Part shown: positions 5,064-18,602 of the stretch, piece after piece
Layout of the letters: every line of letters begins with the position of its first letter
How positions within the stretch are numbered: the stretch's first letter is position 1
NCBI GenBank assembly: GCA_021296265.1
Contig: JAGWAT010000001.1
Location: 12,675 to 76,674, forward strand
Source: Alphaproteobacteria bacterium
GTDB taxonomy: Bacteria; Pseudomonadota; Alphaproteobacteria; TMED109
Direction: 5' to 3'
DNA length: 64,000 bases
Position numbers and translations under genes: made by a program
The notes under the pieces: model-generated
What the model saw: only the letters and a program-made list of their open reading frames with translations
Databases searched by the model: none
Told to the model about the DNA's origin: nothing

Positions 5064-6436
5064 GCTTGTCCTCGATGGCCGGTGATTCGACAGTCCCCGA
5101 TCGCCGATAGCGGCGACACGCCGGCCAGCAGCGTGGATCGGGGTTCGAAGGCGACCTGTATGCTCGAGCGGAGACGTTTGTCCCGCCACCAATTTAGGTG
5201 GGGCACGGCGACTAATCCGTCAAGATCACGGATTGCGGGCAGTGTAGCAAGATGCGTGCGGCAGACGCGTTGCCCGGGGGGCAGGACGGGCAGGCTGCCT
5301 AGATCTCGCGCTCCGAGGGCGCCGACTGTCAGACCCTCGGTGGAGACGTCGCTGGCAATCCGGAAGCGGTGGTCCCAGACTGACATGGGGAACCGGAGGG
5401 GCAGGGAGCCGGAGACCGCTCTCGGCTCCCGGGTGACGAGGAGCTGGCCCTCGCCCAACGTGAGGATGGTGCCCCCGAGCGTGAATCTGCCCCCGGTACC
5501 GCTGTGGATGCGCTCCACGATCCGTCGCAAGGACGTCGTGCGGGGCGGATAGCAGCGCCCCGCAACCGCCTGCACTGCCGCGGCGACGCACCGAAGCGCG
5601 AGCAGGTCGGGCAGGGCCGCGCACGCAGCTTGGTCGATGGCCAAGAATCCCAGCGGTGACACAAGCACGGCGCCGCGCAAGCGGACGGCGGCGGCGCGGT
5701 CAGCGACCGCATCCAAGTTCCGGAACGCTCGGGCCGCGTCCGCCAATTGGGCGGGTGCCGGAAGGGCCGAGGCGGGATCGCCTAGGAGTCGCCGCAGCCG
5801 AACCCGCGTGTACCGCTCATCCTGATTGGACGGATCCTCCAGGAAATCACCGCCATGGAGTTTCAGGGTAGCGCGTAGCCGGGACTTCGGTACGCCAAGG
5901 AGCGGGCGCACGAGTTCGACGGTCTCCGTCGGGGTGCGCACGCGCATGCATCCGAGCCCCCGGATACCACTACCCGCAGCGAGACGCATGAGGAATGTTT
6001 CAGCCTGGTCCTCGAGGTGATGCGCCAGCAGGAGGTTGGTCACGCCCGCCCGCAGGCACCACGAACCCAACAGCTGGTAGCGCGCTGTGCGGGCCCGCTC
6101 CTGGATCCGGTGCGTGACGTCGCCGTGGTACCAGGTCAGGGTTTCGTGCCGCAGTCCGATCGCACGGGCCCACTTGGAGACCGAGACGGCCTCGGCAGCG
6201 GATTCTCGGCGAAGACGGTGATCCACCGTCAACGCGGTGACGGTCCCCCGGCGGCTTCCAGCCCAGGCTGCAATCAAATGGGCGAGCGCCATGCTGTCGG
6301 CTCCGCCCGACACGGCGACGGCAAGGGGTTCGCCACGATGCGGGAAGAGTCCGGCCGCGGCCGCGAGGCGTCCGAATTCTGCCGGCGCAATCGGTCGACG
6401 CGCCGTCGGCGTATCAGGTACAGCCAGCGCGCTCAC
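5060..6436 (-). CDS. tilS: tRNA(Ile)-lysidine synthase
   Basis: TilS attaches lysine to C34 of the AUA-reading tRNA-Ile, changing both its codon and amino-acid identity. The N-type ATP pyrophosphatase P-loop [10 protein letters not shown] is near residue 42 from the chosen start. It is followed by [10 protein letters not shown], the [14 protein letters not shown] segment and GIRGLGCM, all family landmarks. The C-terminal part (GTILTLGEG to WWRDKR) resembles the substrate-binding domain. Start choice is weak: GTG 6436 overlaps cpoB by 23 bases, and an ATG at 6475 is an alternative with longer overlap. The stop overlaps the ftsH start by four bases. Confidence 0.9.
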
Positions 6437-7238
6437 GGCCGAGGACCGCCCGGTCACGCGTGCGCTTCGATGCATCGGGGAAGTCCAGTTCCAGGCGCTG
6501 AAAGGCTTGGCAGGCTTCGGTGTCCTTGCCAAGTGCAATCAGCGAGAGCCCCAGCTTGAGCAGGATGTCGGGGGCCTTCTGCTTGTCGGGTGCACTTTGA
6601 AATCCACGGGCGAATTCGGCGGCAGCTTGTGCATACTGTTCGCGCACGTAGTGGCTTTCGCCAAGCCAGTAGTAAGCGTTGTCAGTGAGGGTACTGTTCG
6701 GGTAGTTCCGGATGAACTCCCGGAACGCGGCCTCCGCGCCGGCATAGTCCGCCGTGCCGAGTAACTCATAGGCCCGCCGGTAGCTGGCTTCCTCGTCGTC
6801 AAACTGGGTAGTGGCCGCCGGCGGTACTTCTGCAGTGGGTCCGGACTGTACTTCCGACGGTACCGTGTCCCCGGTTCCAGGTCCGCCGCCTGCAATGGGT
6901 ATCGGAGATGCCGTGGCGGTCGTCGGACCAGGGACCTGTGGGGTCGGGGCTGCGCTGGTGGCCGCCTGTGCCTCCTCCAGCTCTCGAAGCTCTCCGCGAA
7001 TCTGTTCAAGCAGGTGACGGTTCTCCTGCATCGCGCCGGTCACGGTACGAAGGGAGTCTTCAAGTTCCTGCAGTCGCCGCTCCTGGCTTGCAATCGCCTC
7101 GGCCTGGCGCGAGAGGCTCTCGAGCCTGGTCTCCAATGCTTCGAGCCGCGCGTCGTCCGCCTCCTGCGCGGCGGCAGGACCGGCGACAACTGCGACCCAG
7201 AGGCCTGCCGCTACGATCGCTGCGACATGCCGGATCAC
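6414..7238 (-). CDS. cpoB: Cell division coordinator CpoB (Tol-Pal system protein YbgF)
   Basis: CpoB is a periplasmic TPR protein linking Tol-Pal outer-membrane constriction to peptidoglycan synthesis. The 274-residue protein has a signal peptide ending in GPAAAQ. A coiled coil follows (about residues 28-95, heptads such as LEALETRLESL), which mediates trimerisation in the family. After a Pro/Thr-rich linker come about three TPR units, including AYYWLGESHYVREQY and LLKLGLSLIALGK. The start is GTG 7238, which overlaps the pal TGA as GTGA. An ATG at 7277 would overlap pal by 43 bases and add a non-signal leader, so it was rejected. Confidence 0.93.
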   Translation of the reverse strand: MIRHVAAIVAAGLWVAVVAGPAAAQEADDARLEALETRLESLSRQAEAIASQERRLQELEDSLRTVTGAMQENRHLLEQIRGELRELEEAQAATSAAPTPQVPGPTTATASPIPIAGGGPGTGDTVPSEVQSGPTAEVPPAATTQFDDEEASYRRAYELLGTADYAGAEAAFREFIRNYPNSTLTDNAYYWLGESHYVREQYAQAAAEFARGFQSAPDKQKAPDILLKLGLSLIALGKDTEACQAFQRLELDFPDASKRTRDRAVLGRERAGCT

Positions 7239-7792
7239 GGGTTGATTACGGTGACCGCTACCCGGTTTTGGCGCCAAGCGTCTTCGTTGTGGCCCGCGAC
7301 TTCAGGGCGCTCCTTTCCATAGGAGAGCGTTGAAATCCGGTTGGCCTCTACCCCGAGCGACACGAGATAGGTCTTGACGGCCTCGGCGCGACGTTCGCCG
7401 AGTGCAATGTTGTATTCCCGGGTACCGCGTTCGTCGCAATGCCCCTCAATCGTGACCGTCAGCCCCGAAGCGCCCAGCAAGAGTTCGCCCTGTGCACGGA
7501 GCGTTGCTTCTCCCTCGACGCCGATGGCGCTCTTGTCATAGTCGAAATAGACCCGGTCACCAGCATCGATCAGATGGACCTCAGCCTGCTCTTCAGGAGT
7601 CAGCTGGGTGGTGCCGGCCGTCTCTTCGGTTTCGATATCGATGTACTGTTCAGTCTCGGTAATGTCGGTGAGATTTGTTCCGTCCACGACGTCCGCCGGG
7701 CCGGCGGTCGGTTCTTGCTCGGAAGGGCTGCCGCACGCGGCGAGCGCCAGCGCCACGCCGAGGGCCACAAGGATTTGGGTAGGCCGATGCAT
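7235..7792 (-). CDS. pal: Peptidoglycan-associated lipoprotein Pal
   Basis: Pal is an outer-membrane lipoprotein that binds meso-DAP peptidoglycan and TolB. The 185-residue protein opens with a lipoprotein signal ending LALAAC (Cys20 lipidated), then an acidic Thr/Glu-rich linker. The OmpA-like domain follows: VYFDYDKSAI, EGHCDERGTREYN, LGERRAEAVKTYL, ISTLSYGKERP and the final RQNRVAV. The Asp and Arg that bind diaminopimelate are in the CDERGT and QNR motifs. ATG 7792 has AGGATT upstream. The gene heads the pal-cpoB-tilS-ftsH-folP run. No tolQ, tolR, tolA or tolB precedes it; a divergent dioxygenase gene lies about 600 bases upstream. Confidence 0.95.
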   Translation of the reverse strand: MHRPTQILVALGVALALAACGSPSEQEPTAGPADVVDGTNLTDITETEQYIDIETEETAGTTQLTPEEQAEVHLIDAGDRVYFDYDKSAIGVEGEATLRAQGELLLGASGLTVTIEGHCDERGTREYNIALGERRAEAVKTYLVSLGVEANRISTLSYGKERPEVAGHNEDAWRQNRVAVTVINP

Positions 7793-8398
7793 TGCTGAAT
7801 CCTGCATAACGTGTGAGGCAGCCGCCGAGATAATGGACGGGCGAACGGAAGGACACGTCCGCCGCATCGAGAAATCCGTCGCGGCATTCGGGACGATAAA
7901 AGAAAACTAGGGTGGCGACAATGATCGAGACACCCCCGCACTGCCGTGTCCACATTCGCATCACTCCGCGCCACGGCCCATCACACCTGGGGTGCGGAGC
8001 TGGTTTGGCCTACGAATTCGTGCGGCGGACCGGCCGGGACACGAAACGAACTCTGTGTCGCCGTTCGCGCCGCACGGGATTTCCCGCTGGCCTGTTGAAG
8101 CGATGGAGACAATGCCTCGGATCGGGATCTACCATCCGATCGGCAGCAGATGACAAGCACACGCGGGACACCCGGGACCGGATCCCGGGCGCTTGACGGA
8201 ACGGGACGGGATCGGGGGGCGTCTTGGCAGATGATGCTCGGGACAATGTCAGGCCCGCTTTGCTGCGGGTCGAATGGGGGCGCGTGCATCCGTCGCAGTT
8301 GCGGCGCGTTGGTGAACGCCGCCGCCGGCGCTCATGATAGAACATAGGGAAGCGGCGCAGACGCTGACCCCCTGGCAGATTCCACCAAGGACGACGCG
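7793..8398. other. Divergent intergenic region, pal / dioxygenase
   Basis: This 606-base gap separates divergently transcribed genes and should hold both promoters. Short open frames exist here but show no recognisable protein, no convincing ribosome sites and mutually overlapping antisense frames, so none is called. I see no tRNA, hairpin with T-run, or long repeat. No sigma-70 pair was good enough to report. In many relatives tolB would end here. Confidence 0.6.
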
Positions 8399-9260: not shown

Positions 9261-11267
9261 CTAACCGGTGTCCGCTTCGGCAAACTCCACGATCACGTCG
9301 TCCGCTGCGATGTTGTCGCCTTCGAGCACTCCGACGCGGTGGATGATGCCGTCGCATTCGGCTCGCAACTGGTTCTCCGCCTTCATGGCCTCCACCACCG
9401 CTACCACTTGCCCGGCCTGCACCTGATCGCCCTCGGCAACGGTCACCGATAGCACCAGGCCAGGCATGGGGCTCCGCAGCTCATTCGAACCATCCGGCGG
9501 AAGCTTCTTCGGCATGTGAACTGCGAGCGCCGCCGTCTCCGGCGTACGGACCAGGGCCGACACGGTCACGCCAGCATGCGTGAAGGCCCATCCCTCCACA
9601 GCGGGATCGATCTGGACCACCACCGGTTTTGCGTTGACCTGGCCGCGAAACACGGTTTGCCCCGGGAGCCACGTGCTCCTGACCGCCAGTTGTTTGCTGT
9701 CGACGCTGACGTCGTATCCGCCTTCGGACGCCGACACCCGGCAAGGAATTGACTCCTGCTCCAGGGTGACGATGAGCGGCTTCAAGTCGGTCGGCGCAGC
9801 GGGTCCGGTCCTCGCCTCCACGGTCAGGTACACGCAGACGGCAACGGCAACGAACGCGTCCCTGGCGTTCCCCTGGGGAAGCGTTGGCCGGTAGCCGTCG
9901 GGGTATTCGGAGTCCAGAAAGCCGGTGTCAAGCTGGCCGCTCGCAAATCGCTCGGTCCGGGCTACGTTAGCTAGGAACGCGATGTTGGTGCGGAGGCCTC
10001 GAACGTAGAACCCGTCCAAGGCGGCCTGCATCGCCCGGACCGCATGCTGCCGGTCCCGGCCGTAGGTGATCACCTTAGCGATCATGGGGTCGTAGTGCGG
10101 CGTGATTTCGGAGCCTTCCACCACGCCGGTGTCGATTCGTAAACCCTTGGCTGCGGACGGCACGTTCATGCGTCGGATGCGCCCGATCGACGGGACGAAT
10201 CCCCGCTCCGCGTCCTCAGCGTAGACCCTTGCTTCTATGGCCCAGCCGGTGGCCGGGCGGACATCATCCTGTTGCAGCCGGAGCGGTTCGCCGGCAGCGA
10301 TCCAGAGCATTTCTTCGACCAAGTCGACGCCGGTTACGAACTCCGTCACCGGGTGTTCGACCTGCAGGCGGGTGTTCATCTCGAGGAAATGGAACCCCCC
10401 CTCCGGATCGACGATGAATTCGACGGTGCCGGCCGACCGGTATCCGACTGCCTGGGCCAGTGCTTCGGCTTGCCCCTCCATGCGCTTCCGAAGACCGGCG
10501 TCAAACCGCGGTGCCGGCGCCTCTTCAAAAACCTTCTGGTGGCGGCGCTGGATGGAGCACTCGCGCTCGCCAAGCGAAATGCATTGTCCATGCGCGTCGG
10601 CCAGGACTTGCACTTCGATGTGCCGGGGATTTGGGAAGTAGCGTTCGACGAAGACCCGGGCGTCGCCAAAACTTGACTGCGCCTCGCCCGACGCCAACGG
10701 AAACAGTTCGCGAACCTCGGCGTCGTTGCCGGCAATGCGCATGCCCTTGCCGCCGCCGCCGGCAGCGGCCTTCAACATCACGGGGTATCCGATGGCGTTG
10801 GCCATGGACGCGGCTTCGGCGTCGCTCGTCGCCGGTCTGGTGTTGCCGGGGACGACGTTGACGCCAGCCTTGGTCGCCAGTTCCTTGGCGGCCAGCTTGT
10901 CTCCCATGACTTCGATCGCCTCTGGGGGAGGGCCGACAAAGGCGATGTCCGCTTCTTCGACCGCCCGCGCGAAGGCCGCGTTTTCCGAGAGGAACCCGTA
11001 GCCCGGATGGATGGCCTCCGCCTTGGTCTTGCGCGCAGCAGCTAGGAGGGCCTCAACCTGAAGATAGCTTTGGCTCGCCGGGGCAGGACCGATTGCAACT
11101 GCTTCGTCGGCAGTTTCTACATGCAGCGAGCCCTGGTCAGCTTCGGAATAGACGGCGACCGTCTTGATGCGCATCCGCTGACAAGTGCGGATGATCCGGC
11201 AGGCGATTTCCCCCCGATTGGCGATCAGGACCTTCCGGAACGGCCGGGTCCGTCGGCGGGGCGTCAC
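9261..11267 (-). CDS. pccA: Propionyl/acyl-CoA carboxylase alpha subunit (biotin carboxylase + biotin carrier)
   Basis: This subunit carboxylates biotin with ATP and bicarbonate and carries it to the beta subunit. In the propionate pathway this yields methylmalonyl-CoA. The 668-residue order is: biotin carboxylase N-domain ([14 protein letters not shown]), ATP-grasp with the [12 protein letters not shown] glycine loop, catalytic [14 protein letters not shown], a middle BT-type domain, and a C-terminal biotinyl domain. The biotin attachment site reads EAMKAEN with the lysine at residue 629; the usual motif is AMKM, so the residue after the lysine is altered. ATG 11267 overlaps the end of pccB by four bases, which indicates coupled expression. 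Acyl specificity (propionyl or a branched acyl group) is inferred from overall similarity. Confidence 0.9.
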
Positions 11268-12796
11268 AGCGGGATGTTTCCGTGCTTCTTCGGCGGGTTC
11301 GTGAGGCGCTTGTTTCGCAGCATCTTCAATGAACGGGCAATCCGAGTTCGGGTCTCACGCGGGAGGATGATGTCGTCGATGTACCCCCGGCTGGCCGCCA
11401 CGAACGGATTGGCGAACTTGCTACGGTATTCCTCCGTGCGCTGCTGAATCTTCTCGGGATCACCCATATCGGCCCGGAAGATGATTTCCACGGCACCCTT
11501 CGGGCCCATGACGGCGATTTCCGCCGTGGGCCATGCCAGGTTGATGTCTCCCCGAAGGTGCTTCGACGCCATGACGTCGTACGCGCCTCCGTAAGCCTTG
11601 CGGGTAATCACCGTGATCTTGGGAGAAGTGGTCTCCGCATAGGCGAACAGGAGCTTGGCGCCATGCTTGATCAAGCCGCCAAACTCCTGGTCCGTGCCCG
11701 GCAAGAAGCCCGGGACGTCGACGAAGGTCACGATCGGAATGTTGAAGCAGTCGCAGAAGCGGACGAAGCGGGCAGCCTTGCGGCTGGAATCGATATCGAG
11801 ACAACCCGCGAGCTCCATCGGCTGATTGGCCACCACGCCGACCGTTCGCCCCTCAACGCGGCCGAAGCCGATCAGGATGTTGCCGGCGAAGTCGGGTTGG
11901 ATCTCGAAGAAGTCGCCCTCGTCCAGGACCTTCTCCAGTACCTCGCGCATGTCGTACGGCTTGTTGGGATGCGCTGGCACTAGAGAATCGAGGGATGGCT
12001 CAATTCGATTGGCGGGGTCCGCCGTCTCGCGGGTTGGCACCTGCTCGCGATTCGATAGCGGCAGGAAGTGGAACAGACGCCGCACTTGCGAGAGGGTTTC
12101 GAGATCGTTGTCGAACGCGAGGTCGGCGACCCCCGACTTGGCGGTGTGGGTTCGGGCTCCGCCAAGCTCTTCGTGCGAAACTTCCTCCTGAATAACGGTT
12201 TTGACGACGTCGGGCCCGGTCACGAACATGTAGCTGGTGTCGCGCACCATGCAGATGAAATCAGTCATCGCGGGCGAATAGACAGCGCCGCCGGCGCAAG
12301 GGCCCATGATCACCGAGATCTGCGGGATGACGCCGGAGGCGAGCACGTTTCGCTGAAACACCTCCGCGTACCCGCCGAGCGACGCAACGCCTTCCTGGAT
12401 GCGAGCGCCCCCGGAATCGTTCAGGCCGATTACGGGCGCGCCGACCTTCATGGCTTGATCCATGACCTTGCAGATCTTTTCCGCGTGCGCTTCCGACAGC
12501 GAGCCGCCGAACACGGTGAAGTCCTGACTGAACACGAATACCGGACGCCCGCCGATTTCACCCCACCCTGTGACGACTCCATCACCCGGGATGGTTTGCC
12601 GCTGCATCCCGAAATCGCCGCTTCGGTGCTCGACGAACATGTCAAATTCCTCGAACGAACCCGGATCCAGGAGCGCGGACAGTCGCTCCCGGGCCGTCAG
12701 CTTTCCCTTCGCGTGTTGTTTCTCGATGCGTGCGGTACCACCGCCGAGATGGGCATTGCGGCGCTTGCGCTGGAGGGTTCGAAGGACGTCTTGCAT
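11264..12796 (-). CDS. pccB: Propionyl/acyl-CoA carboxylase beta subunit (carboxyltransferase)
   Basis: PccB moves the carboxyl group from carboxybiotin to the acyl-CoA. The 510-residue protein has the two crotonase-like carboxyltransferase halves. The first contains [40 protein letters not shown] and [16 protein letters not shown]. The second contains [17 protein letters not shown], the [13 protein letters not shown] loop and [18 protein letters not shown]. These glycine-rich oxyanion sites are intact. ATG 12796 is the start of the conserved MQDVLRTL N-terminus. The gene precedes pccA in a two-gene unit; the 184 bases upstream, before the OmpA-like gene end, presumably carry the promoter. 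Confidence 0.93.
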
Positions 12797-12980: not shown

Positions 12981-15632
12981 TCACGGTTGCGTCAGCTTGA
13001 GCTCAATGCGTCGGTTGCGACGGAGTGCCGCGGGGTTAGTTTCGGGATCGATCGGCTGGAATTCCGCGAACCCGGCAACCGAAAGCCGCTCCGGCGGCAG
13101 GCCATTTTCGAGGAGAATGCGGGCTACCGCAGTTGCCCTTGCCACTGAAAGTTCCCAGTTGGATGGAAACTGTTCGGTGAAGATCGGGTCCGTGTCGGTG
13201 TGCCCCTCAATCTGCAGGATCCAGGGCACGTCCTCCGGGATCTCCCCCGCGAGGACCCGCAGGGCACCGGAGACCTCGGCGATTTCCCGGCGGCCGTTCG
13301 GACCTATCTCCGCCGAACCACTTGCGAACAGCACTTCGGACTGGAAGATGAAGCGATCGCCGACGATCCTCACGTCCGCTCGATTCCCGAGGATGTCGCG
13401 AAGTCGCCCGAAGAACTCGGACCGGTAGCGCGCCAGTTCGCTGACCCTCGTGGCTAGGGCGGCATTGAGTCGCTCGCCAAGCTCCACGATCTGGATTTCC
13501 TTTGCCTCCCGGTCGGCTTCGGCGGCGTCCAGGAGCCGTCCAAGTTCGTCGAGCCGCGCCCGTACGTCGGCGAGCTGGCGGTTCAGCACGGTGGCCTGCT
13601 CCCTTGCCGCCACTGAAAGCGCACGCTCCTGTTCGAGGTCCGCATCCGACTGCAGCAGATTGGTTCGGGCTGCCGCCGCGGCAGCCGCAAGTTCGGCCAG
13701 ACGTCGTTCCAGCTGTTCCTTGTCGAGTTCAAGATTCAGGGCTTGATCGGCTAGATCCTGCTCGGAAGACCGGAGACGGCTGAGGTTGTCGCGAAGTGAC
13801 TGCTCGCTGCTGCGCAATCGCTCGATTTCGTCCCGGAGCTCCGCTTCCTGCACCTGTGCGTCATCCAGTGAGCGCCGGAGCGTTCCGACTTCGGACGACA
13901 GGTCCCGGTTGCGGGCCTCCAGACCAACCTCCAGCGTCCCGGCTTCTTCGAGATCTTGAGAAAGTTCCTGTAGGTCTGTCGTCAATTGCTCATTCTGTGA
14001 CTGAAGTTCCAGCCCCAGTGCCTCGGCCGTCTGGAGTGAAAGGGCGAGTTTCTGAACATCAGCACTCAATGCCTCGTTTTCGGCCTTGAGTTCGCTGCTG
14101 CGGGTTTCTGCCGTTTCAAGCGCTTGCAGCAGTTCCCGCAGTTCGGCAGACAACGACGCGTTCTGTGTCTGGAGCTGGTCACCGCGATCGCGGGCATCGG
14201 CCAGTGCGCGCGTCAATCGCTGGACGTCGGCGTCGAGAGTTTGGTTTGCACCCTGCAGATCGTCACCGTGAGCTTCCGCTGCCGCCAGTGCCTGCGCCAG
14301 CCGTTGGATATTGGCGTAGAGGGTTTCATTCTCAGCCTGCAGGTCGTCGCCACGGGTTTCCGCGGCGGCGAGCGTCTCGCCAAGCTGCCGGATATCGGCA
14401 GTTAGCGTTTCGTTCTCGGCCTGAAGGTTACTGCCGCGGTTTTCTGCTGCCGCGAGTGCCTGCATCAGCCGCTGGATGTTGGCGTCGAGGGATTCGTTTT
14501 CGGACTGGAGGTCGTTGCCCCGTGTCCGGGCCACTTCAAGCGCTGCACTCAGCTGCTCCAGGTTGGCGCTGAGGGTCTCGTTCTCGTCCCGAAGGTTGTC
14601 GCCATGGGCCTCGGCCGTAGCGAGTGCCTGAGTCAGCTGCCCGACGTCAACCACCAGGGTCTCGTTTTGGGCCTGAAGATCTTCACCCCGGGCCTCGGCA
14701 GTAGTGAGCGCTTGGGTGAGTGCCAAGACGTTGGCCTCGAGGGATTCATTTTGTGCCTGCAGGTCGTCGCCGTGGCTACGAGCCGCCAGTAGCTCTTGCG
14801 TAAGCTGCTGGACGTTGGCGTCGAGGTTCTCGTTCCGGGCCTGAAGGTCATCGCCACGGGTCCGGGCCGTTGCCAGGTCCTGGGTCAGCTGCTGCACGCT
14901 GGCGTCGAGGTCCTGGTTCTCGCTCTCGAGATCGTCTCCTCGCTGCCGGGCCGACGCGAGGGCCTCCGAGAGGTCGCGCACCTCGGCACCCAGCGTCTCG
15001 TTCTGGCCCTGCAGCTTGTTGCCGCGGATACGGGCTGTTTCCAGTGCCTGAGTGAGTAGCTGGACGTCTTCGGACAAGGAATCGTTCTGGTCCTTCAGGT
15101 TGGTAGCGAGTGTCTCGGTTTCCTGAAGCAGTTGCGTGAGCCGTTGGACGTCCGCTGCCAGGGAGTCATTCTGGACCCGCCGATTCGCGGCAAGCGTTTC
15201 GGCTGCTTCCAGTGATTGCGTAAGCTCATGCACCCTGAGAGTTAGTTGTTCGTTTCTCGCCTCGAGATCCGCACCAAGGGCTTCGGCTGCGTGCAGGCTC
15301 TCGGTGAGAAGCTGCACGTCATCGTTCAGGCGTGTGTTCGCTGCCCGGAGGTTGTTGACCTGAGTCTTTGATTCACTGAGAGACTGGGTCAGTTCGTAGA
15401 CGTTTTGGGTCAGCGCAGCGTTCTGCGTTTCCTCTTCGGCGAGCTGCTGGGTCAGCGCGTTCATCTGGGACGTCAGAGACTGCAGTTCCTCGTCTCGGCC
15501 CTTCAGGAGCAATCCCAGCACGAACTCCGACAATACGAAGATCGTGAGGAGAAAAACCAGGACGAGCAGCAGTGTCGAGATGCCATCGACGAAGCCCGGC
15601 CAGATGTTGGGCGATTGGCGTCGCGAGGGCAC
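12981..15632 (-). CDS. MotB/OmpA-like envelope stator protein with giant coiled-coil stalk
   Basis: An 883-residue inner-membrane protein. Residues 10-42 are a MotB/TolR-type segment, WPGFVDGISTLLL onward, with Asp15 or 16 placed like the proton-carrying aspartate of stator B subunits. Residues 46 to about 735 are almost entirely coiled coil, including eighteen 28-residue repeats at 84-587. Residues 740-883 form an OmpA-like peptidoglycan-binding domain with LFASGSAEI, IEGHTDTDPI, LSVARATAVARIL and the final RRNRRIELK. One transmembrane helix near the N-terminus puts the stalk and OmpA domain in the periplasm. The gene lies nine bases downstream of its ExbB/MotA-like partner. Alphaproteobacterial relatives known to me are far shorter, roughly 300-400 residues. 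Cellular role unknown; force on peptidoglycan or envelope bridging is inferred. Confidence 0.85.
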   Translation of the reverse strand: MPSRRQSPNIWPGFVDGISTLLLVLVFLLTIFVLSEFVLGLLLKGRDEELQSLTSQMNALTQQLAEEETQNAALTQNVYELTQSLSESKTQVNNLRAANTRLNDDVQLLTESLHAAEALGADLEARNEQLTLRVHELTQSLEAAETLAANRRVQNDSLAADVQRLTQLLQETETLATNLKDQNDSLSEDVQLLTQALETARIRGNKLQGQNETLGAEVRDLSEALASARQRGDDLESENQDLDASVQQLTQDLATARTRGDDLQARNENLDANVQQLTQELLAARSHGDDLQAQNESLEANVLALTQALTTAEARGEDLQAQNETLVVDVGQLTQALATAEAHGDNLRDENETLSANLEQLSAALEVARTRGNDLQSENESLDANIQRLMQALAAAENRGSNLQAENETLTADIRQLGETLAAAETRGDDLQAENETLYANIQRLAQALAAAEAHGDDLQGANQTLDADVQRLTRALADARDRGDQLQTQNASLSAELRELLQALETAETRSSELKAENEALSADVQKLALSLQTAEALGLELQSQNEQLTTDLQELSQDLEEAGTLEVGLEARNRDLSSEVGTLRRSLDDAQVQEAELRDEIERLRSSEQSLRDNLSRLRSSEQDLADQALNLELDKEQLERRLAELAAAAAAARTNLLQSDADLEQERALSVAAREQATVLNRQLADVRARLDELGRLLDAAEADREAKEIQIVELGERLNAALATRVSELARYRSEFFGRLRDILGNRADVRIVGDRFIFQSEVLFASGSAEIGPNGRREIAEVSGALRVLAGEIPEDVPWILQIEGHTDTDPIFTEQFPSNWELSVARATAVARILLENGLPPERLSVAGFAEFQPIDPETNPAALRRNRRIELKLTQP
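13872..15383 (-). repeat. Eighteen tandem 84-bp repeats encoding 28-residue coiled-coil units
   Basis: Residues 84-587 of the OmpA-like protein divide exactly into 18 units of 28 residues with no insertions. A consensus is A-L-A-x-A-E-x-R-G-D-D-L-Q-A-x-N-E-x-L, then x-A-N-I-Q-x-L-T-Q. Hydrophobic or small core residues recur at strict 3-4 spacing, so 28 residues equal four heptads in register. One core Asn (in the ENET segment) and one core Gly or Ala (after R/H) recur in each unit. At the DNA level the copies are diverged, suggesting old duplications kept in frame. Confidence 0.9.
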
Positions 15633-15641
15633 GCCGTTTGC

Positions 15642-16856
15642 TCAGCGCTTGGGCCGGGTCTGGTAGGTGCTGCGCGGCTTCGCCTCGGATTTGGCTGCGG
15701 CCGTCGAGGCACGTCGCGTCGCCTTTGGTGCTGCCGGCGTGGATTCGTTTGCCGGAACCGAGGTACTCAGGGTGCGGGCAAGCAGTTTGATTTCGCTCCG
15801 CACTCCCTGCAAGAACGCCTCCTGTCCGGAAGCGCTCTCTTCGACCAGGCGCTTCAGGTTGGAATCGACGCTGCGCAGATGGGCCAGGGAGTTTTCGTCA
15901 AGACTGCCCCCGGTGTCGGCAATGCGTTCGATCTGCCGAATTAGGGAGGACTGCTCGCTGCGCAGCTGATCGCCGAGAGCGGAGAGCTGCGTGGCGATAG
16001 AAGACATCGACTCGCTGACATTGCGGCGTTCGTTCTCGCCCCGAACCAGAGCTTTCTGAAGCTCATCGATGCTTTCGGCGGTCTGCTCGAGCAAGGCCTG
16101 CACGTACACGGGAACCGGTGTATGTCCCGACTCAATCTCGCCGCTTCCCCCCGCAGAGACGTGTGCGCGACGGGCCAGCCATTCTTCGAGGTCGAGGTAG
16201 AAGCGGTTCTGCGCCTGGGCCACCTGCAGGTCGAGGAAGCCCAGCACGAGGGAGCCCGCGAGCCCGAACAGCGAGGAACTAAAGGCGGTGCCCATACCGG
16301 CGAGCGGCTCGGTCAGGCCGGCTTTCAACGATCCGAAGACCGACGCGACGTCACCGCCTTCACTGATCGTGAGATTGCCGATGACTGCGCCGAACGAACT
16401 TACCGTCTGGAGCAGGCCCCAGAACGTCCCCAACAACCCGAGGAAGATCAAGAGTCCGATCATGTAGCGGGAAATGTCGCGGGTCTCGTCGAGGCGGAAG
16501 TTCACGCCGTCGAGCAGGGAGCGCATGGAGAGAGCGGAGATCAGCGGGCGAGAAACTTTGTTCTGATCCGTGAATGTGCGAGCGATCGGGGCAAGCAAAT
16601 TTGGCGGCCGCGAATTGCCGATGCTCACACTCATGCCGGAGGCATAGCGTTCGAGCCACCGGATTTCGGGAACTAGCGCCATTACCTGACGAAACGAGTA
16701 GGCGATCCCGATCAGCAGCACGCCGGCGATGAGCCCGTTGAGCGCTGGATTGGCGTTGAAGGCTTCTTTGAGCGTCGACAGCAGCAGCGACGCAAGCCCG
16801 CCCGATACCACCACGAACGCAATCATGCGAAGCAGGAAACGATGAGGGCTATGCAC
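15642..16856 (-). CDS. ExbB/TolQ/MotA-like proton channel subunit
   Basis: A 404-residue membrane protein, partner of the downstream OmpA-like gene. Two N-terminal helices (near residues 11-28 and 37-55) are followed by a cytoplasmic loop. A third helix contains IGLLIFLGLLGTFWGLLQTV and a fourth contains GMGTAFSSSLFGLAGSLVLGF; these are the conserved pore pair of the MotA/TolQ/ExbB family. After the last helix the C-terminal about 170 residues are cytoplasmic, with a short coiled coil (ESIDELQKAL to RIADTGG) and a basic Ala/Lys tail. GTG 16856 is chosen because SPHRFLLRM matches the usual N-terminus; ATGs at 16925 and 16982 would add an unrelated leader. It is not TolQ proper, as no tolR or tolA is nearby. 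Confidence 0.82.
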   Translation of the reverse strand: MHSPHRFLLRMIAFVVVSGGLASLLLSTLKEAFNANPALNGLIAGVLLIGIAYSFRQVMALVPEIRWLERYASGMSVSIGNSRPPNLLAPIARTFTDQNKVSRPLISALSMRSLLDGVNFRLDETRDISRYMIGLLIFLGLLGTFWGLLQTVSSFGAVIGNLTISEGGDVASVFGSLKAGLTEPLAGMGTAFSSSLFGLAGSLVLGFLDLQVAQAQNRFYLDLEEWLARRAHVSAGGSGEIESGHTPVPVYVQALLEQTAESIDELQKALVRGENERRNVSESMSSIATQLSALGDQLRSEQSSLIRQIERIADTGGSLDENSLAHLRSVDSNLKRLVEESASGQEAFLQGVRSEIKLLARTLSTSVPANESTPAAPKATRRASTAAAKSEAKPRSTYQTRPKR

Positions 16857-17216
16857 TGTTGTTTCCCGCAAGCTGGGCGGCGGCCCAACCGCCAGCCGTC
16901 GACCCACGAGAGAAGCAGGACGCATCCGGCGGACTACAGTCTCGCTTCCAGATGGCAAGAACGGCCATGTTCGGCCCAGCATGTCCGACGCGACCAGATA
17001 CAGACGAAATGGCAGAAAAACATGGAAAAATCAAGCTGGGGAAGGCTAGTGGCCTGGGTGGTGCGATGGGGGGCAACTGGGCCTCCTCACGGCAGGGAGG
17101 CGGTTCCGTGCCATGTCGGTCCGGGTTGTTGTTCCATGCCCCGGCGGATGGTTCACACGCGTAGTGCTCAACATCAGGTGAACTGGTTCGGGACCCTGGC
17201 GCGACAGGTGTCATCG
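16857..17216. other. Intergenic region upstream of the ExbB-like gene
   Basis: These 360 bases lie between the suhB stop and the ExbB-like start, both on the minus strand. No recognisable protein is encoded; open frames on both strands lack family resemblance. I see no tRNA or intrinsic terminator. The promoter for the ExbB/OmpA-like pair should be here. An A/T-rich patch near 17010-17035 is the most promoter-like stretch. Confidence 0.5.
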
Positions 17217-18017
17217 TCAAGCGTGCGGATCAGCCTCCATCAGGCAGTCTTGCAGGGCTATCGCGACCTCGGGAGTGCCGGCAATCACTTCGCCCGTGAT
17301 CAGGGGACAGGTGTTCCTCCGGAGCCCGACGACGGAACCGCCTGCTTCGGTAACGCACAGCATACCGCCTGCGATGTCCCACGGGTTGAGCCCCGTCTCC
17401 CAATAGCCATCGACGCGGCCGGAGGCCACGTAGCACAGGTCGAGGGCGGCGGCGCCGAAGCGGCGGAGGCCGGCCACCTTGCGCATGATCCGGCGCTGGC
17501 GCGAGAGATGCAGGTCGTGGGCTCCGCGACTCCGGTGGGGCAGCCCGAGTGCCACTACGGCTCCCTCGAGGGTCGTGCGCGGCGTGATGCGGAGTCGACG
17601 GTCGTTGACGTAGGCACCGCGCCCTTTTTCCGCCCAGTAGGCTTCGTGCTTGATGGGGTCCAGGACAAACGCTCCGACGATCGTGCCAGCGCGCTCCAGG
17701 GCGATCGAAATGGCGAAATGAGGGATCCCTCGCAGGAAATTTAGGGTCCCGTCAACGGGATCGACGATCCAGCGGTGCTCACCGTCCCCGGCCTCTTCCA
17801 GTCCTTCCTCCATCAGAAAGCCGTAGCCCGGCCGGGCGCGGGCGAGCTCGCGGTGCAGGATCTCCTGCGTCCGCAGGTCCGCCGACGTGACGAAATTGTC
17901 AGGCCCCTTGAGCGAGACCTGGAGGTTCTCGATTTCTCCGAAATCCCGACGGAGCGGGCGCGCCGCTTTTTCGGCGGCCCCGGACATCACGTTGATGAGC
18001 GCGGTCGGATAGGGCAC
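17217..18017 (-). CDS. suhB: Inositol-1-monophosphatase family protein (SuhB)
   Basis: A 266-residue Mg2+-dependent phosphatase of the IMPase family; the bacterial members also act in rRNA transcription antitermination. Metal-site motifs are present: the acidic MEEG pair (residues 70-71), DPVDGTLNF (86-94) and the C-terminal NPWDIAGG. The fold markers KGPDNFVTSAD and HRWIVDPVDG match SuhB. GTG 18017 is chosen because the family N-terminus (ALINVMxxAAEKA) follows it directly. It lies 18 bases downstream of efp, the usual alphaproteobacterial pairing, and is probably cotranscribed with it. Confidence 0.9.
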   Translation of the reverse strand: MPYPTALINVMSGAAEKAARPLRRDFGEIENLQVSLKGPDNFVTSADLRTQEILHRELARARPGYGFLMEEGLEEAGDGEHRWIVDPVDGTLNFLRGIPHFAISIALERAGTIVGAFVLDPIKHEAYWAEKGRGAYVNDRRLRITPRTTLEGAVVALGLPHRSRGAHDLHLSRQRRIMRKVAGLRRFGAAALDLCYVASGRVDGYWETGLNPWDIAGGMLCVTEAGGSVVGLRRNTCPLITGEVIAGTPEVAIALQDCLMEADPHA

Positions 18018-18035: not shown

Positions 18036-18602
18036 CTAGGACTTGGCTCGTTCGACGTACGACCCGTCCAGTGTGTTGACCACGATGCGGGTGCCAGTTT
18101 CCACGTGTGGCGGCACCATCGTCCGTACGCCGTTGTCGAGCACGGCCGGCTTGAATGAACTTGAGGCGGTCTGACCCTTGACGACGGCTTCGGTCTCCGT
18201 GACGACTGCGACGGCGGTTTCCGGAAGCCGAATCGCAACTGGTTTCTCCCCCGCGTACTCGACGGTGACGTCCATGCCGTCCTGCAGGAACGGGAGGGCG
18301 TCACCGACAATGGCGGCAGCGAACTCGGTTTGGTCGTAGGTCGTCGTGTCCATCAGCGTTACCGTGTCCCCGTCGCCAAAGAGGTACTGAAAGGACCGGC
18401 CCTCAATGTACAGGCGCTCCAGGTTCTCCGCTGCCCGAAACCGCTCGTTCAGCTTGCTGCCGTTCTCGAGGTTGCGGAGTTCCAGCTGGGCGTAGGCTCC
18501 GCCCTTGCCGGTCCGCACTGCCTGCTTCCGTACCACGCGCCAGATACTCCCCTGATGCTCGATCACCATGCCGGGGCCGGCTTCATTTCCCTTGATGCGC
18601 AT
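18036..18602 (-). CDS. efp: Translation elongation factor P
   Basis: EF-P enters the ribosomal E site and speeds peptide-bond formation at proline runs. The 188-residue protein has the KOW-like domain I (MRIKGNEAGPGMVIEHQG), a domain I loop with RTGKGG, and OB domains II and III ending in DGSYVERAKS. The loop lysine that is modified in gammaproteobacteria is present at residue 33, but PGK is TGK here. No epmA or epmB lies in the window. ATG 18602 is preceded by GGAAGCAGG. The gene is divergent from the glyoxalase II-like gene and leads the efp-suhB unit. Confidence 0.95.
   Translation of the reverse strand: MRIKGNEAGPGMVIEHQGSIWRVVRKQAVRTGKGGAYAQLELRNLENGSKLNERFRAAENLERLYIEGRSFQYLFGDGDTVTLMDTTTYDQTEFAAAIVGDALPFLQDGMDVTVEYAGEKPVAIRLPETAVAVVTETEAVVKGQTASSSFKPAVLDNGVRTMVPPHVETGTRIVVNTLDGSYVERAKS

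Follow-up and report, generated by a model that had tools for sequence, protein, structure and literature searches.

A long-stalk variant of the PRK09039-type gene pair and heptad-stepped stalk lengths among its alphaproteobacterial homologues

Bacterial membrane motors of the MotA/ExbB/TolQ/ZorA class include several described systems that resemble a gene pair in a 64,000-nucleotide stretch of an alphaproteobacterial genome (GenBank assembly GCA_021296265.1, contig JAGWAT010000001.1, positions 12,675–76,674; hereafter the window). The two genes encode an A subunit and a B subunit with a long periplasmic stalk. The closest described relatives are the PRK09039-type pairs (NCBIfam NF006542–NF006546, ‘peptidoglycan -binding protein’), which share with the window pair the transmembrane (TM) motif and the OmpA domain of B, the neighboring A gene, and the efp–suhB locus. 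These relatives have a shorter stalk and most carry an additional gene, here called C, whereas the window genus lacks a C match. MotA (348 amino acids, aa) and MotB (321 aa) of Komagataeibacter hansenii, encoded by an adjacent pair in a non-flagellate host of the Acetobacteraceae, are likely short-stalk members of this family. MotA has four TM segments and MotB one TM segment and an OmpA domain; C-terminal green fluorescent protein (GFP) fusions are polar, and overexpression of the pair elongates the cells (PMC6570709). MotB of K. hansenii is short and thus has at most a short stalk, unlike B of the window.

Other motors are more distant. Zorya ZorAB, a 5:2 motor (PMC11890865), shares with the window pair the fold of A, a single-TM B with an OmpA-like wall-binding domain, and a cytoplasmic tail on A. 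In Zorya, however, the long element is this tail of A, whereas in the window it is on B and periplasmic, as an earlier reading of the DNA (the sequence-only reading) had proposed; the window pair also behaves like core genes and no defense partners were found alongside it. TolQRA–Pal and ExbBD–TonB share the ExbB/TolQ fold and, presumably, proton drive with the window pair, but their B-type subunits in this genome are ∼150 aa long and lack an OmpA domain. Flagellar MotAB has a TM aspartate, an OmpA-type wall anchor and a parallel coiled-coil TM dimer (PMC10659934). The first two of these features are seen in B of the window, where the plug and linker of MotAB are replaced by a long coiled coil; the best MotB-type NCBIfam score of B is 99 bits (MotD), below the curated cut-off of 283.

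The window pair does not represent a new kind of system: it is a long-stalk form of a family that is already named and widespread but functionally almost uncharacterized. B scores 382.3 bits in two stretches against NF006543 (PRK09039.1-2; curated cut-off 305). At 883 aa it is far longer than the 350 positions of the model, although length does not enter the curated cut-off, and homologues of 500–997 aa likewise exceed that cut-off. In an even draw of 386 genomes across the Alphaproteobacteria, 257 contain a B match at a threshold of E 1e-30, among them at least nine genomes of 0.7–0.9 Mb. Wherever a locus is long enough to reveal the order, A almost always immediately precedes B. The typical locus in the class is efp–suhB–(C)–A–B, with a stalk much shorter than that of the window genus; of 97 loci, 71 have efp and 72 have suhB upstream in the same orientation, and many of the remaining loci are contigs too short to tell. 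The orthologues in Acetobacter fallax are of K. hansenii size (A 351 aa, B 324 aa), and this B also exceeds the NF006543 cut-off.

In most of the class, suhB and A are separated by gene C (e.g., L026:4582-5508). Its product is secreted and rich in Pro, has an OmpA domain at its C-terminus and scores above cut-off with no NCBIfam family; the seven genomes of the window genus (92–97% complete) contain no match to C. Loss of C was considered as a cause of long stalks and rejected, since three sister genera (g2, g4 and g5) without a convincing C match have stalks of 123–131 residues. PapS of Rhodospirillum rubrum was dropped as a candidate homologue of C; the main text of its paper names no ExbB, TolQ or operon.

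This family membership bears on the sequence-only reading, which had presented the pair as an undescribed system without a described function. The first part fails, because B is above the NF006543 cut-off, the pair is widespread with shorter stalks, and a probable short homologue was studied in K. hansenii (PMC6570709). The second part is nearly right. The NCBI models matched by B give no function, A has no NCBIfam model above cut-off, and literature on PRK09039, on the pair in Brucella, Rhizobium and Rhodobacter, and on non-flagellar Mot pairs yielded no function beyond the K. hansenii overexpression study. A published long-stalk family, which that reading had named as a finding that would overturn it, did not appear either: the literature search found no work on the long-stalk form.

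B starts with a TM helix, continues as a long coiled coil and ends in an OmpA domain (Table 1). The positions of the two genes and this domain order agree with the sequence-only reading; its two structural provisos, that B might lack a TM helix or that the stalk might not be a coiled coil, did not materialize, since prediction gives a TM helix and the stalk sequence is that of a coiled coil. The TM motif reads WPGFVDGIS, and W11, P12, G13 and D16 are invariant across 35 aligned B homologues. D16, found in all 35, supplies the acidic residue expected in the single B TM helix of the 5:2 motor class. At the opposite end, PF00691 matches with E 6e-16 (59 bits, cut-off 27.2), and the diaminopimelate-binding Asp and Arg of the OmpA domain are present as D813 and R832, both invariant among the aligned homologues. 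The Arg equivalent to R832 is required for meso-diaminopimelate binding in PapS and in Acinetobacter baumannii OmpA (PMC11369160).

Between residue 37 and ∼709 the heptad phase of the stalk never shifts. Its a and d positions are 69–81% hydrophobic in every 56-residue segment, and the hydrophobic power reaches 68 at period 3.5 but does not exceed 2 at neighboring periods. At lag 28 the identity is 0.396, versus 0.103 in shuffled sequence (z = 25.7), far above chance. The repeat array noted in the sequence-only reading stands, with 19 units of 28 aa rather than the 18 repeats it had counted. Each of the 19 units has an Asn at a particular a position and a Leu at three of the other core positions. 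A further a position is V, L or I, a further d position is Ala in 17 of 19 units, and Gly occupies one a position in most units. Asn at a, V, L or I at a, and Leu at d form the core pattern that favors parallel, in-register dimers. Because the stalk has the invariant Asn at a, V/L/I at a and Leu at d, along with unbroken heptads, we infer that it is a parallel, in-register, two-stranded coiled coil. Coiled coils rise 0.1485 nm per residue, and a straight stalk (residues 37 to ∼709) would reach ∼100 nm, in keeping with the first estimate; an ordinary periplasm measures a few tens of nm.

One way to reconcile these dimensions is a stalk folded back on itself: three to five antiparallel segments would pack into a compact bundle as wide as the periplasm, and no part would extend to 100 nm. 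The AlphaFold2 (AF2) monomer of B shows a helix from residue 13 to 748 with three low-confidence breaks, followed by an OmpA-like fold. The four resulting helices (∼130–240 residues, each ∼20–35 nm, with short breaks between) fit such a bundle, and the Gly at an a position of most units also speaks for it. However, the breaks have predicted local distance difference test (pLDDT) values in the 40s, two of the three fall within units like those that are predicted to be helical elsewhere, and the heptad phase passes through them without a shift. The AF2 models are of single chains, and a dimer or complex is outside their reach. Asn at a in every unit suits parallel in-register pairing instead, and homologue stalk lengths spread continuously, many of them at 150–330 residues, without clusters at odd multiples of the periplasm width. 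We therefore consider the folded bundle unlikely.

Stalk lengths across the class point to a continuous coiled coil. We measured the distance from the TM aspartate (D16) to the RSEFF landmark at the base of the OmpA domain in 107 parsed homologues; a 1276-aa open frame from genome G039 (L022) was excluded, as its N-terminus looks unrelated and the TM landmark was not found. The distance spans 136–804 residues, or about six-fold, whereas the distance from RSEFF to the end motif is almost fixed (137 residues in 106 of 119 proteins). Seventy-five of the 107 distances equal 6 modulo 7, 29 equal 2 or 3 (half a heptad off), and three take other values. Related sequences are not independent, so distinct distances were tested: 33 of 51 are at 6 modulo 7 (chi-square p 2.4e-22, a guide only). 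Moduli 5, 6, 8, 9, 10 and 11 gave no pattern. Homologous stalks thus vary in length almost only by whole or half heptads, and among their 22,942 residues there are only 2 Pro and 0 Cys. What the rule fixes is the register of the heptads rather than an absolute angle, because the supercoil turns too. Our literature search, which was thin in subscription journals, found no description of this rule.

Within this range the window genus is extreme, with landmark distances of 720–804 residues compared with mostly 150–350 in relatives. The six complete B open frames of the genus have 886, 886, 914, 914, 914 and 970 codons and differ by multiples of 28. Between species the outer units are orthologous and the inner units have turned over. 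The ratio of nonsynonymous to synonymous substitutions (dN/dS) in the repeats is ∼0.19 (0.154/0.826; window versus genus member G006), compared with 0.09 in the wall-binding end. The window genus is not alone: Falsiroseomonas stagni (L135), Pseudoroseomonas aestuarii (L099) and a metagenome-assembled genome of the Acetobacteraceae (L128) have long stalks as well, periodic at 28 or 14 residues. The repeats in these three seem to differ in sequence from those of the window genus, and the stalks may therefore have expanded independently. The B homologue of F. stagni (L135:6984-10124; ∼990 aa) additionally has a C-terminal extension of ∼200 aa past the OmpA domain.

Such variation could be neutral, with 28-residue units slipping freely and tolerated as long as heptad phase is kept, so that length itself has no function. 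The number of units does vary among species of the genus, inner units match several partners, as expected of turnover, and some of the other long-stalk lineages share the 28- or 14-residue periods. Yet all six complete genus members fall within 883–967 residues, the outer units are still orthologous, and the repeats are under purifying selection between species, although selection on sequence alone is no proof of selection on length. On balance, neutral expansion seems to us improbable.

The A subunit belongs to the same motor class by fold. Its AF2 model (pLDDT 69) has a four-TM-type, MotA/ExbB-like helix arrangement, and Foldseek matches the model to ExbB, TolQ and ZorA at probability 0.9–1.0 (E 3e-4 to 1e-2), which assigns A to the MotA/ExbB-type motors. 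The PF01618 score is just 18.3 bits, under the cut-off of 22.9, and a sequence search of the PDB with A or its profile returned either no match or generic coiled coils only. T144 of A is invariant in the alignment. A also has a cytoplasmic C-terminal tail, a feature that the sequence-only reading did not mention. Although the tail varies elsewhere, the motif RSEIKLLART at its tip is retained in most of the class and might be where a cytoplasmic partner docks.

The likeness of A to ZorA raises the idea of a Zorya-like anti-phage system in which the long element has shifted from A to B. PADLOC reports partial matches to ZorA1 (E 1.2e-12) and ZorB3 (E 8.6e-21), and A has both the fold of ZorA and a cytoplasmic helical tail. 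In contrast, B fits NF006543 at E 3.4e-114, and the best NCBIfam ZorA score is 16.9 bits against a cut-off of 250. The flanking genes examined (suhB, efp and a carboxylase pair) include no ZorC/ZorD- or ZorE-like gene; a genome-wide search with PF15611 (ZorC) was empty, as was its control search. Moreover, every one of the seven genus members has a B match, as do genomes smaller than 1 Mb, and gene order at the locus is conserved in the class; a mobile defense island would not be expected to behave in this way. A defense role of this kind is very improbable.

Table 1. Features of the A–B locus in the window (positions count from the first nucleotide of the window)
Feature	Position	Strand	Description	Basis
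B subunit	12981..15632	-	883 aa, GTG start; PRK09039-type OmpA-domain protein	Translation, NF006543, PF00691
OmpA-type peptidoglycan-binding domain of B	13011..13331	-	Residues 768–874; D813 (HTD), R832 (LSxxRA)	PF00691
RSEFFGRL landmark of B	13401..13424	-	Residues 737–744; base of OmpA domain; F740 and F741 invariant; anchor of length measurement	
Periplasmic stalk of B	13428..15524	-	Residues 37–735; coiled coil, heptads in phase to ∼residue 709	
19 tandem 28-residue units of B	13842..15437	-	Residues 66–597; consensus DLQAQNETLSADVQQLTQALAAAETRGD	
TM helix of B	15525..15596	-	Residues 13–36; D16 in WPGFVD at the presumed proton-carrier position; model helix starts at residue 13	
A subunit	15642..16856	-	404 aa, GTG start	AF2 model, Foldseek
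Cytoplasmic helical tail of A	15762..16109	-	Residues 250–365; ends in RSEIKLLART	AF2 model, A alignment
suhB-like inositol monophosphatase	17217..18017	-	Conserved upstream neighbor	PF00459
efp (elongation factor P)	18036..18602	-	Conserved upstream neighbor	PF01132, PF09285, PF08207

The genes run from A to B with a 9-base gap. The open frame of A reaches further upstream, to an ATG at 16982; the GTG start chosen at 16856 agrees with the genus, where the frames of G002–G005 open only four codons upstream. Directly downstream of B are genes for the alpha and beta subunits of a biotin-dependent carboxylase (9261–12796, minus strand), a pair conserved in the genus loci and not found beside B at the other loci examined. 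The pal gene and a gene for a CpoB-like tetratricopeptide repeat protein (6414–7867) are on the same strand ∼5 kb downstream of B, and tolQRA is on a separate contig (L140) from these two.

Considering all of the evidence, we find it somewhat probable that the pair forms a 5:2 motor with a housekeeping role in the envelope, driven by protons and anchored to the wall, and that its parallel coiled-coil stalk is constrained in heptad register. Proton drive and anchoring to the wall are suggested by the conserved TM aspartate, the fold of A and the residues for wall binding. The pair would add to the motors of this genome rather than serve as a flagellar stator, because tolQRA and exbBD are encoded separately from the A–B pair (L140 and L141; named from their sequences), and the only PF00691 proteins of the genome are Pal and B; no other stator was found in it. 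The housekeeping role in the envelope is suggested by the distribution, the synteny and the one overexpression study. Several points weigh against this reading. The modeled B helix is broken, at low pLDDT, at residues 255–262, 422–431 and 563–574, which a folded stalk could use. About a third of the sampled alphaproteobacterial genomes have no match, and the pair is hence not universally needed. The assignment of the K. hansenii proteins rests on lengths, host group and the BLAST hits quoted in PMC6570709, and the data themselves come from overexpression and C-terminal GFP fusions, with overexpression in Escherichia coli having no effect (PMC6570709).

In the motor that we favor, probably five A subunits would surround two B subunits, and protons may pass between the pore of A and the invariant TM aspartate of B. 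The B dimer would grip peptidoglycan by its OmpA domains, as their conserved residues suggest, and with B held by the wall, A and the membrane would move relative to it. The stalk would act as a continuous mechanical link in which heptad register matters more than length. In the window genus, multiplication of the 28-residue units appears to have taken it to ∼100 nm, beyond the width of an ordinary periplasm. A two-stranded coil of that length cannot stand upright there, and bending along the wall is thus the simplest arrangement; the stalk most likely lies along the wall as a long-reach tether. The tolA open frame of this genome is 333 aa long and ordinary-looking, which argues weakly against a wide periplasm in this organism. 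Excess reach has a precedent in TolA, whose domain II often exceeds the periplasm width (PMC12204202). We are more tentative about a stronger version, possible though doubtful, in which the stalk is a ∼100 nm drive shaft or lever along the wall, through which the 5:2 motor acts on distant peptidoglycan, with selection keeping register and not length. The most likely place of action of the motor is the poles or the division site, beside Tol–Pal. The tail of A probably hands motion or state to a cytoplasmic partner, though this step is speculative.

If this reading holds, about two-thirds of the sampled alphaproteobacteria, including genomes below 1 Mb, would carry a third proton-motor system beside Tol–Pal and Ton, at a conserved locus and encoded by a pair that has no function in the curated libraries searched. 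The heptad-stepped lengths provide a clean, testable sign that the stalk functions as one uninterrupted coiled coil. As the extreme case, the long-stalk genus would constrain models of how wall-anchored motors fit into a narrow periplasm.

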